Source: Cellvibrio sp. OA-2007 (GTDB taxonomy: Bacteria; Pseudomonadota; Gammaproteobacteria; Pseudomonadales; Cellvibrionaceae). From it: a stretch of DNA of 64,000 bases. The DNA is taken from positions 62,001 through 126,000 of the forward strand of contig NZ_BBUL01000096.1 of NCBI RefSeq assembly GCF_000953825.1, written 5' to 3'. Positions 19,056 to 39,501 of this stretch are shown here, one piece after another. The notes under the pieces are model-generated. The model made no database searches and was not told where the DNA came from. It was given only the letters and a program-made list of their open reading frames with translations. The stretch's first letter is position 1. Each line of letters opens with the position of its first letter. A program made the translations under genes and the position numbers.

Positions 19056-19067
19056 TGCCCAAAATAA

Positions 19068-19100
19068 AAACGGGATCAGCCATTGACTGATCCCGTTTCT
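19068..19100 (+). terminator. Intrinsic terminator after the DUF3530-like gene
   Basis: AAACGGGATCAG (19068-19079) pairs perfectly with CTGATCCCGTTT (19087-19098) around a 7-base loop, followed by a T-rich tail. Confidence 0.85.
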
Positions 19101-19369
19101 TTAACGCACAAAGCTCAACACATCCCGTCCTGAACCTTGTAATCGCCTTTCATTTACATGACACAATTGAGTGAAAATGGCGATCCGAATTAGGCGCTTC
19201 CCTTGACCCTGCTTGGTCAACCTACCCTCCCTGACGACCTCCTTGTTAGAAGCCATTTTCAAGTAAACACAGGGTTGGGAATAGTCGCAAAATTCACTGA
19301 TTCATGTAGGAAATCAACTACAGCACGCTGCGGCTATTGGCTTATAAGCCCGAGGAAATAGGGCAAATC
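19101..19369. other. Gene-free stretch with nested inverted repeats
   Basis: No protein frame is convincing here. GAAAATGGC (19173-19181) is complementary to GCCATTTTC (19252-19260), and between them TTGACC (19203-19208) pairs with GGTCAA (19215-19220). A perfect 12-bp palindrome GGCTTATAAGCC lies at 19339-19350. These could fold as an RNA or mark a decayed repeat; no known RNA family is recognised. Confidence 0.35.
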
Positions 19370-36963: not shown

Positions 36964-38232
36964 TCACTTTAATAAGGGGGAATTCAACGCATCGACTTTA
37001 GGGCCAATTAATTTTTCGACGCTTTTTTGCAAATCATCTAAGGTGACTTTTCTGGTTTTCATCAAATCTCGTATTACATGATCGATATTATATTTATTTT
37101 TGCTTCGTTTGCGAATTTCCTTATCCAATTCATCCAAAAGCACAACTGCACGTGCGGTTACCGGCCCGGTAGATTTACTTTTCCGCAAATGCTTTACCTC
37201 TGCACCCCACTTATCCAAACTCTTAATAATTGCATTACGCCGCGATTTAGTCATGCCATGGGCACGATACAACAATTCAAAAGAATAAAACTCAGCAACC
37301 CCTTCCGCAATCCAATCATCATTAGTATTGGCAGTTGTGGCACCGCTGATACGAGTAATCATATGAGTCAATTCGTGCAGCAATGGACTAGTTCCATTTT
37401 CACTCACCAGAGGACGATCTGCATGCAAAAACAAGGAATTAGCTGCCGATAGTCCACCACGCCACATTGGATCACCCGCACCAACTACTAATAATTTTTG
37501 GGGTGTTTTAATAAATGCCTTGTGAACTTCCGGCCAAACAAAATTAAAAAAAGTCAACGAATCCATGCGTTTAAAGTGCTCACCTTTAGGGGCACTAACG
37601 GCAATTGAAGTCCCAGAAACCTTCGCACGTCGCGTTCCCACCTTGCCTGCAATCATCCACCCGGTCGGACGATCAAAGCGGCGATCAGGATTATCTATTG
37701 AAAAGATATTGTCTTTTTTTCGCGGCCACCCGGTCTCAATACTGGTCCAGCCTTCTGGCAAAACAACCTGCATCGTGGCAATCGCGTATGAACCCATAAC
37801 GTCTCCAGTATCTATATGAGCTGGAGGTATCAAATCATCTCCTCTAAAAACAGCCCAATCCTTAGTAACAATTGCATCATATTTCCCTGGGTCGCGCTCA
37901 TGCGTAAGCGCTACAAAATAGGATAATTGTGCAACACCTTGTGGTAACTCCCATGTCACACGCTTATCTTTGATTATCAATTTGCCATTTGCCCGAATAT
38001 TGGAATAAATATCTCGGCTATTATTAAAACTCAACTGCTTGAGCAGCTCACCTTTATTCACACTGATTATTACTGATGCCCCCTGCTTGGATGGCTCAAG
38101 AGTAACCTTATATGTCAATTCATAGCTGAGATCAGACGAAGTTGTAGCCATCGCCTGAGCAGAACCCGCCATCAAGACAAATAGCCAAAAAAATTTAAAA
38201 ACAAATAAGCGTATTTTCAAAACAAACGACAT
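36964..38232 (-). CDS. Secreted gluzincin-like zinc metalloprotease
   Basis: This 422-residue exported protein has a signal peptide (hydrophobic residues 8-27, cleavage near AQA) and an N-terminal beta-rich region. The zinc motif is HELTH (His286, Glu287, His290), followed 19 residues later by Glu310 in WIAEGVAEF, as in M1/M61 gluzincins. No PDZ domain typical of M61 is visible. I chose the ATG at 38232, where GAGGTT lies upstream. The gene is visibly more AT-rich than its neighbours, which may mean acquisition or relaxed selection. Its substrate is unknown. Confidence 0.72.
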   Translation of the reverse strand: MSFVLKIRLFVFKFFWLFVLMAGSAQAMATTSSDLSYELTYKVTLEPSKQGASVIISVNKGELLKQLSFNNSRDIYSNIRANGKLIIKDKRVTWELPQGVAQLSYFVALTHERDPGKYDAIVTKDWAVFRGDDLIPPAHIDTGDVMGSYAIATMQVVLPEGWTSIETGWPRKKDNIFSIDNPDRRFDRPTGWMIAGKVGTRRAKVSGTSIAVSAPKGEHFKRMDSLTFFNFVWPEVHKAFIKTPQKLLVVGAGDPMWRGGLSAANSLFLHADRPLVSENGTSPLLHELTHMITRISGATTANTNDDWIAEGVAEFYSFELLYRAHGMTKSRRNAIIKSLDKWGAEVKHLRKSKSTGPVTARAVVLLDELDKEIRKRSKNKYNIDHVIRDLMKTRKVTLDDLQKSVEKLIGPKVDALNSPLLK

Positions 38233-38360
38233 AAGACTACAACCTCGATAGTAATAATTTGTTTTCAACACAGTGTACTGCAATTGGCGGCGCATAGGTT
38301 ATCAAGCGGGGGAACTTACCTATTTGAACCAGACCAAAACAAAACACAAACTGACCTTCT

Positions 38361-38378
38361 TTGTAGTCAATTTCCTAC
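38361..38378 (+). promoter_or_regulatory. GacA-box-like upstream activating site
   Basis: TGTAGTCAATTTCCTACA matches 9 of 12 defined positions of the GacA upstream activating sequence TGTAAG-N6-CTTACA and keeps its 18-bp dyad. Its centre lies about 65 bases before the predicted start of the GGA-rich RNA, the distance usual for rsmZ-type promoters. A -10 element GATAAT lies at 38423-38428. Confidence 0.65.
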
Positions 38379-38434
38379 ATAGAATTCAGCCTTTGGCGGC
38401 TACCCAATAGAGCATGTGTATTCGATAATAGTCA

Positions 38435-38708
38435 CAACAAGGACGTAAAAAGGAACTACACAAATTCATAGCTACCGGATGCAAGGAGAAGGGAGATTCA
38501 TGGACTGAACGAAGGAATGACAACTAATGGAAAACCAAATGCAGGGATGGATAAGCGAATAAGGGAGTATGAAGGTTTTACATAAGGAAGATGCAATGGA
38601 TTGAGCGGTAAACTTGGGTTTTCAGCAGGACGCTGAGGTGATCGAGATTACTTTATCCAATACAGGACGCACTATGGGGTTTCTCTACAGAGAAACCCCT
38701 TCTTTTTA
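38435..38708 (+). ncRNA. CsrB/RsmZ-type CsrA-sequestering small RNA
   Basis: No protein frame is present, yet the stretch holds 15 GGA motifs between 38440 and 38666. Several are in strong CsrA contexts such as ACAAGGACGT (38437-38446), TCATGGACTG and ACAGGACG. Chance would give three or four. It ends at an intrinsic terminator on the same strand and is preceded by a GacA-like box and a GATAAT -10. The family known as CsrB/CsrC/RsmX/Y/Z binds and titrates the translational repressor CsrA/RsmA. The predicted length of about 274 bases is nearer to CsrB/CsrC than to short RsmY/Z. The 5' end is estimated from the -10. csrA itself is not in the window. Confidence 0.8.
38676..38708 (+). terminator. 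Intrinsic terminator of the GGA-rich RNA
   Basis: GGGGTTTCTC (38676-38685) pairs perfectly with GAGAAACCCC (38690-38699) around TACA and is followed by TTCTTTTT. The T-run is present only in the plus direction. It therefore ends a plus-strand transcript, although no plus-strand gene lies nearby. Confidence 0.9.
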
Positions 38709-38766
38709 TCCAAAAAAATACTTTATTCCAGGCTGGCAATCAACCGCTGCACCTTGAAAATAATAA

Positions 38767-39501
38767 TTAGAAATTATCAGCAATAAACTTCTGCGCTAAA
38801 CGTGCAGCATCACTGTTACCTGCTGCAACCTCAGACAATAAAGCCTTGGCCTTGGCTCTATCACCCATCAAAAAATAAACCTTACCTAAATCGAGCTGAG
38901 CATCAGGTACTTTTGCAGCACTTGGAAAGTTGGCGATAAGCTCTGTAAACCAACTTTTTGCTTGCGGGTAATCTTTTTTGAGCATTGCGATTTTGCCCAA
39001 CCAATAATGGCTATTACTGGCAAAACTTCCACTAGGGAAACTGTTCAGATGTGCCTTGAAAGCTCGCACGGCACCATCAAAATCTTTTTGATTTAGCAAA
39101 TCGTAAGCGGCTTTATAAACATCACTTTCGCTAGCAGTGCCAGGCAAAGCTGACGCTGCAACAGGAGCGGCAACTGCTGCCATAGAGTCTTCGGTACGAG
39201 CACTTACCGCAGCAGATGTATTACCAGACAAACGTCGATCAAGATCTATGTAGTTGTCTAGTTGTAGTTGTTTGAGCTGTTTTAGCTCATAGGATTGCTC
39301 TTCAAGAAGACCGCGCAAAGTGGCTACCTCTTCTTGCAAAGCGCGAATTTGGGAATAAACATCAGATTCAGCAGAGACAGGCAGATTAGATTGAGCCACC
39401 CCAGAGCGAATGCTCTGGGGTGAAGACTCAATAACCCGTACTTGTGCCTGAGAGACTGAAGCTGAAGTCACTAAAACAACAGCAAGCAGATTTTTAAGCA
39501 T
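38767..39501 (-). CDS. cpoB: Cell division coordinator CpoB (YbgF)
   Basis: CpoB is a periplasmic protein that couples Tol-Pal function to peptidoglycan synthesis at the septum. The 244-residue protein has a signal peptide (cleavage near SQA) and an N-terminal trimerising coiled coil (about 45-80, IRALQEEVATLRGLLEEQ). An Ala/Ser-rich linker leads to C-terminal TPR repeats starting at about residue 125 (YKAAYDLLNQKDFDGAVRAF). It is the last gene of the tol-pal group, 14 bases after pal. Confidence 0.93.
   Translation of the reverse strand: MLKNLLAVVLVTSASVSQAQVRVIESSPQSIRSGVAQSNLPVSAESDVYSQIRALQEEVATLRGLLEEQSYELKQLKQLQLDNYIDLDRRLSGNTSAAVSARTEDSMAAVAAPVAASALPGTASESDVYKAAYDLLNQKDFDGAVRAFKAHLNSFPSGSFASNSHYWLGKIAMLKKDYPQAKSWFTELIANFPSAAKVPDAQLDLGKVYFLMGDRAKAKALLSEVAAGNSDAARLAQKFIADNF

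Follow-up and report, generated by a model that had tools for sequence, protein, structure and literature searches.

We report a probable GGA-rich small RNA gene at positions 38436 to 38708, on the plus strand, of the window (the whole stretch of Cellvibrio DNA analyzed here, 64,000 nucleotides). With a probability of roughly 0.86, its product is a GacA-controlled sponge that titrates CsrA, one of several parallel sponges in the genome. In the proposed mechanism, GacA would bind a dyad whose center lies some 66 bp before the presumed transcription start. A promoter of the sigma-70 type would give rise to a transcript of about 270 nt, which would stop at its own terminator and be made when Gac activity is high. 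The many GGA (ANGGA/CAGGA) sites of this RNA would then bind CsrA dimers and withdraw CsrA from target mRNAs, the presumed regulon. Parallel sponge RNAs in the same genome would include those of classes A and D, both in the window, those of classes B and C, and copies that stem from IS66 elements.

Anatomy of the window locus

The locus begins with an 18-bp dyad of the GacA/UvrY type, TGTAGTCAATTTCCTACA (hereafter, the box), at 38362 to 38379 on the plus strand. It is followed at 38396 to 38403 by GCGGCTAC, the window form of a GCGACTAT-like element found between box and -10 region, and at 38424 to 38429 by a -10 hexamer, GATAAT. By eye, a comparable GCGACTAT-like element stands at about the same position in classes A, B, and D, and class A orthologues carry an A+T-rich, -10-like hexamer in the position matching GATAAT. 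The GATAAT promoter was not among the results of a generic sigma-70 scan. Transcription would start near 38436, and the predicted RNA contains 15 GGA motifs. These include the AGGA in the loop of a hairpin at 38622 to 38636 (TCAGC-AGGAC-GCTGA), which is the most conserved CsrA-type site in class A. The RNA closes with an intrinsic terminator at 38676 to 38708, made up of a stem with covarying pairs, GGGGTTTCTCTACAGAGAAACCCC (38676 to 38699), and a T-rich tail, TTCTTTTTA; this is the longest of three terminator-like sites in 38000 to 39000 and the sole one on the plus strand. The dyad, the -10 hexamer, and the plus-only terminator named in a first-pass annotation of this DNA are therefore all present. 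That annotation had also described the interval as free of protein genes, and indeed the stretch from 38295 to 38767 holds no open reading frame of at least 50 aa. On the plus strand, stops break all three frames of the predicted RNA, and the class A RNA is predicted to be noncoding, with a promoter and a terminator of its own. The neighboring "gluzincin" gene (36964 to 38295, minus strand) has a HELTH motif and no Pfam match at an E value of ≤0.001.

GGA density and folding

In a sliding count over both strands, 15 GGA motifs in 232 nt is the maximum in the 64-kb window, and the next separate peak reaches 10. The first-pass annotation had the number right and the places slightly wrong, since each start that it listed was one base low (the real starts are 38441, 38452, 38477, and so on to 38665). 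Twelve of the 15 motifs are ANGGA sites. None of 2,000 mononucleotide shuffles of the class A stretch reached 15 GGA, and 21 of 2,000 dinucleotide-preserving shuffles did (mean, 9.9). The latter figure, together with a weak fold z-score (the window RNA is slightly more stable than its shuffles; z = -1.76, with 9 of 200 as stable), is what one might expect if there were no RNA gene here at all and the locus were a purine-rich spacer plus a terminator serving the convergent cpoB, its GGA cluster a product of base composition. The recurrence of the locus and the existence of paralogues, presented below, speak against such a spacer; it is already disfavored, and we consider it very improbable.

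GGA guanines of the window RNA have a mean unpaired probability of 0.65, compared with 0.38 for its other guanines; the same computation on Escherichia coli CsrB gave 0.81 and 0.28. In the minimum free energy structure, 8 of the 15 GGAs are unpaired and 5 are in hairpin loops (17 and 9, respectively, of the 22 in CsrB). The folding evidence is therefore mixed: the expectation that most GGAs would sit in hairpin loops fails for the window copy, and GGA guanines are more unpaired than other guanines in 15/15 class A, 8/8 class C, and 12/13 class B RNAs.

Conservation beside cpoB in Cellvibrio

We took cpoB from 21 Cellvibrio genomes and read the DNA downstream of each. In 15 of them, a box with 0 to 2 mismatches to TAGTCAATTTCCTACA lies on the strand opposite to cpoB and is followed by a GGA-rich stretch and a terminator-like end. 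The box, promoter element, GGA cluster, and terminator thus recur as a unit in 15/21 genomes, contrary to what the spacer explanation would predict, and this answers for close relatives the question, raised by the first-pass annotation, of whether the GGAs and dyad are conserved. That annotation had also proposed looking for the same interval between the gluzincin gene and cpoB elsewhere in the genus, and 13 of the 15 class A loci do have a gluzincin-like gene on the side away from cpoB; the flanking DNA retrieved for the other two (G012 and G016) did not contain it. Loci L004, L023, and L045 are cpoB linked and were counted as class A, and the box is present in Cellvibrio mixtus J3-8 too. No class A RNA was found beside cpoB in the remaining six genomes (G003, G004, G005, G006, G009, and G020). 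In G004, the interval downstream of cpoB (L084) in which the class A RNA is missing holds an AGTAAGC tandem repeat. G018, a genome with 6% contamination, has a second cpoB without the RNA.

The class A orthologues are 212 to 368 nt long and contain 11 to 26 GGA motifs each; the window copy is short, at 269 nt compared with 317 to 368 nt in 12 of the 14 others. Thirteen of the 15 RNAs were aligned (alignment A4, model R2), with those of G012 and G016 left out as too divergent. In the 13 aligned 3' domains, the CAGGA of the 3' hairpin is invariant, while the RNA sequence drifts strongly; of the 16 consensus pairs predicted there, 8 show changes on both sides. The class A 3'-domain model found no match outside Cellvibrio among 144 family genomes. 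The drift between GGAs, the short window copy, and the placing of only 5 of 15 GGAs in hairpin loops would also suit an RNA that is real and GacA controlled and has a main role other than CsrA titration, such as base pairing with mRNAs. There is a precedent in RgsA, which the available part of one report describes as GacA controlled, with a single GGA, and as having failed to derepress hcnA (PMC2375449). However, RgsA has one GGA where the window RNA has 15, at least 11 GGAs are kept in all 15 orthologues, and the CAGGA loop is the best-conserved segment of the RNA; we regard such a nontitrating role as improbable, and CsrA titration as the preferred reading.

A putative multigene set of box-driven RNAs

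Judged from sequence, the box-driven RNAs appear to form a multigene set: class A beside cpoB, class B, class C (mostly between rplQ and uvrA), and class D beside a DTW-like gene. Paralogy among them was detected with covariance models. Model R3, built from 13 class B sequences (alignment A3), matched at E values of 1.3e-42 or better in 19 of the 21 genomes of the genus; in the genome that contains the window, the class B RNA is at G000:C15:64216-64425 and adjoins a tadA-like gene. Weaker matches occur in other genera of the family; at an E value of ≤0.01, R3 matched 74 of the 144 family genomes in all. Many of these matches are weak and may reflect composition, and weak matches were counted only with support from a box and synteny; an opposite-strand match at G014:C1:2050084, which may likewise be due to composition, was not counted. 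Among 10 class B-like loci retrieved from other genera, 7 have TGTN12ACA 71 to 73 bp before the RNA. In one other genus, of the family, three class B-like matches follow one another in each of G149, G150, and G152, and two do so in G151, which suggests tandem duplication of the RNA gene.

Class D supplies the second predicted RNA of the window. R3 has one match there, at 19250 to 19063 on the minus strand (27.9 bits; E = 6.4e-8), and none to the class A RNA. This GGA-containing RNA (19063 to 19250) is preceded by a box, TGTAGTTGATTTCCTACA, at 19305 to 19322 on the minus strand and a -10 element, GAAAAT, at 19260 to 19255; its terminator falls within 19098 to 19061. Of 20 regions fetched around weak R3 matches in other genomes, 17, each from a different genome, have both the neighboring DTW-like gene and a box at -71 or -72 with 2 to 5 mismatches of 18. 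Counting the window's own genome, class D therefore lies beside a DTW-like gene in at least 18 of the 21 genomes of the genus. The remaining regions comprise L236 and L243 (G009 and G018), with a box and no DTW gene, perhaps a fifth class, and L238, without a box.

Class C was modeled from eight class C sequences only (alignment A1, model R1), and yet the single match of R1 in the 64-kb window, up to an E value of 10, is the class A RNA (38535 to 38706, plus strand; 31.9 bits; E = 1.7e-6). Conversely, the class A 3'-domain model matches class C RNAs at E values of 3e-5 to 8e-3. Since the models' E values are rough and purine-rich composition may inflate them, this link is taken as support for, not proof of, common descent. 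R1 detected class C in 14 of the 144 family genomes, all Cellvibrio. Four of 390 order genomes gave R1 matches outside Cellvibrio (E = 6e-4 to 8e-3); these lacked a TGTN12ACA dyad within 110 bp upstream and were not counted. Nine of the 11 loci labeled as chromosomal class C, including G000:C25 of the window's own genome, sit between rplQ and uvrA. To assess covariation, 24 class C RNAs, including the 8 from which R1 was trained, were aligned with that model; such an alignment is fitted to the model and leans toward it. In it, 89.1% of cells pair (shuffled mean, 83.2), and 56 cells are changed on both sides, compared with 15.9 in shuffles (0 of 500 as high). Twelve pairs show change on both sides, compared with 8.8 (21 of 500 as high); 10 of these 12 belong to two hairpins whose loops present AGGA, and the signal is lost when the partner is slid. 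BLAST searches in distant mode gave no match of a class C RNA to plasmids and none of the window class A RNA to phages.

The box, the Gac/Csr regulators, and known Csr/Rsm systems

The GacA consensus is TGTAAGN6CTTACA, from which the window box departs at 3 of 12 positions; 14 sites in the 64 kb are at least as good. By itself, the box is weak evidence, to which its conservation adds weight. The 16-mer box core, with at most one mismatch, occurs in 19 of the 21 Cellvibrio genomes, and a reversed control pattern occurs 0 to 1 times per genome and strand. Fetched box sites were merged to 51 distinct sequences, of which 46 have at least 230 nt downstream. Seven or more GGAs follow at 34 of these 46 readable sites, compared with 71 of 1,380 control stretches from the same loci, which, with the paralogues at other loci, again runs counter to a mere composition effect. 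The 12 sites with fewer than seven GGAs downstream include the class D RNA L065 (6 GGA) and L017, whose RNA seems to have been cut by another IS66 end. A box pattern was also seen at L118 19-56, close to a contig end in what is classified as a Bacteroidetes metagenome-assembled genome; the contig is possibly misbinned.

Profile searches found that the host encodes both CsrA and a GacA orthologue. Its CsrA (MLILTRRIGETLMVGDEV...) is canonical, with an aspartokinase-like gene preceding it, and a second, divergent CsrA-like protein of 90 aa is encoded on another contig (L021 1378-1650, minus strand). The best GacA/UvrY candidate scored 272 bits with NF007018, which we take to be the appropriate model, 8 bits under its cutoff of 280; the next regulator scored 123 bits. 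The gene after this candidate is presumably uvrC. For the related Teredinibacter turnerae, the available portion of one report describes GacS, GacA, and two CsrA homologues, and it mentions an annotated csrA in Cellvibrio japonicus (PMC2699552).

The first-pass annotation called the window RNA a member of the CsrB/RsmZ type. The kind is supported; membership in a catalogued family is not. Rfam gave no RNA match of any family in the 64-kb window, and no Csr/Rsm family is among the matches at an E value of ≤10 in 38340 to 38760, so that the covariance-model comparison proposed at the outset came back empty and the window RNA is not filed in any Rfam Csr/Rsm family. Weak matches to veev_FSE, rnk_pseudo, Bacillaceae-1, and CRISPR-DR36 in the same interval are far below the cutoff and were set aside. 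CsrC and RsmY are also in Rfam, beside CsrB (RF00018) and PrrB_RsmZ (RF00166). At 369 nt and 22 GGA, E. coli K-12 csrB resembles class A in size and motif number, and the class A RNA is likewise intergenic with a terminator of its own; in contrast to CsrB, the window RNA matches no model and has a smaller share of its GGAs unpaired (8/15 against 17/22). The paralogous classes fall short of these models as well. An IS66-borne class C RNA (L018) reached only 24.7 bits with RF00018, whose gathering score is 71, and a class B RNA (L034) reached only 20 bits (E = 0.76) with RF00166, whose gathering score is 44.

PrrB/RsmZ shares with the Cellvibrio set the upstream GacA-type dyad, the richness in GGA, and the presence of several parallel RNAs per genome; RsmX and RsmY are parallel RNAs of this kind in pseudomonads. 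RF00166 gave no match in the window's own genome. Over the Rfam cutoff, it gave 10 matches in nine genomes, all of one family (f20), which we take to be Pseudomonadaceae. All nine loci fetched carry TGTAAGN6CTTACA with 0 to 1 mismatch at -178 to -190; the Cellvibrio set thus has the same type of box at a different distance, its boxes starting about 71 to 74 bp before the RNA, and the window-type RNA is longer than RsmZ. A palindromic upstream activating sequence of rsmX, rsmY, and rsmZ is mentioned in the available text of PMC2375449. The three mismatches and the shorter distance would both be accommodated if the box were bound by a regulator other than GacA, with the RNA still a CsrA sponge. 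We consider this unlikely, though somewhat less so than a nontitrating role: the class B-like loci of other genera keep the place of the box, the TGT...ACA ends are retained in 7 of 10, and some of their cores (TGTGAGACATTTCCTACA and TGTAGGAAATATCTCACA; 2/12 mismatches) are nearer to the GacA form. Control by GacA remains our preferred reading.

Class C RNAs on IS66 elements

Although the window RNA itself belongs to an established kind, the siting of class C copies on IS66 elements appears to be new. In the class C copies other than the chromosomal ones, the box points inwards and is 38 to 77 bp away from the outer edge of a terminal repeat, GTAAGCG; in five distinct elements, an IS66 tnpC converges on the terminator of the class C RNA. 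Two elements have both terminal repeats within the contig. L073 (1-2394) consists, in order, of repeat, box, RNA, tnpC in two frames, tnpB, tnpA, and repeat, with the repeats GTAAGCG/GTAACCG at 1 and 2394. L079 (1746-3539) contains a class C RNA and a shortened tnpC between repeats GTAAGCGCAG at 1746 and 3539. A third, L078 (from 2091), is an IS66-family element with the class C RNA between terminal repeat and tnpC. Pfam matches on the carrier elements were PF03050, PF13817, and PF05717, confirming DDE_Tnp_IS66 and TnpB_IS66. The carrier elements have a TnpC with DDE_Tnp_IS66, a TnpB_IS66, and terminal inverted repeats, as expected of the IS66 family. Outside the repeat, the DNA is unlike among the eight copies in G006, the three in G020, and two in the window's own genome. 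Contigs end 78 to 136 nt from the box in three of the G006 copies and in all three G020 copies, and their RNAs are therefore visible only in part; such contig ends are as expected of a collapsed repeat.

Most IS66 copies seen carry no class C RNA: PF03050 has 29 matches in 7 of the 21 genus genomes, and 22 of these 29 loci, including all 12 of G019, are without an R1 match. The four class C copies of the own genome that lie away from rplQ-uvrA have no intact tnpC beside them and look like remnants. IS66 elements produce an 8-bp target duplication. None was found at L079, where the flanks GAAAAACC and ATTAGATT differ (L073 starts at a contig end). Neither of the two-ended elements has an uninterrupted tnpC, and this, together with the missing duplication at L079, counts against current insertion sequence activity.

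The TnpC proteins of L073 and L078 are only 28 to 34% identical in their aligned parts. Class C RNA identity is 69 to 80% across the two transposase lineages (78% for C101-C622, 80% for C101-C269, and 69% for C153-C622) and 71% (C101-C153) and 82% (C269-C622) within them. On the tree, the IS-borne RNAs need two changes, and one of them falls among the chromosomal RNAs. As far as these sequences go, the pattern is in keeping with a module captured or exchanged more than once, and a single origin of the IS-borne RNAs may also apply. Identity of class C RNAs between the own genome (G000) and G014 was dropped as a sign of transposon transfer. L162 (G000:C14) and L160 (G014) are 100% identical over 6,001 bp or more, the whole fetched stretch, and L163 (G000:C31) and L161 (G014) share a block of 1,646 bp at 99.9% identity. 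The identical blocks span flanking genes and are therefore not evidence of IS movement. CpoB proteins of the two genomes are only 74% identical, compared with near identity of these blocks with their old IS66-end RNA; the blocks reflect either the transfer of a larger piece of DNA or a mix-up in assembly.

Taken together, we lean toward, without being confident of, a model in which Cellvibrio IS66 elements carry a built-in, GacA-switched CsrA-sponge RNA module that has moved between transposase lineages, each insertion adding a copy of the antagonist. Among the open-license PMC papers, the titles and abstract beginnings listed contained no report of an IS-borne sponge RNA, and no paper was found on IS66 with CsrB or on IS66 with a small RNA and CsrA; those retrieved for CsrB with Cellvibrio dealt with other subjects. 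According to the available part of PMC7366521, csrA genes are carried by phages and plasmids, so that there, too, part of the Csr system travels on mobile elements; the cargo there is the protein CsrA and, on the IS66 elements, a sponge-like RNA together with its box.

Implications

Cellvibrio has been studied for its degradation of polysaccharides. Its Gac/Rsm system would have its output in classes A, B, C, and D and in the copies borne on IS66 elements. The redundancy of this sponge set predicts that deletion of any single RNA may have little effect. Expression of the IS66 copies would mean that an insertion sequence carries a dosage-dependent antagonist of a global regulator of its host; the IS66-borne sponge would then match, at the RNA level, the csrA genes that the available part of PMC7366521 places on phages and plasmids. 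Should the proposed model of a built-in module be true, mobile DNA would tune or exploit the Gac/Rsm switch.
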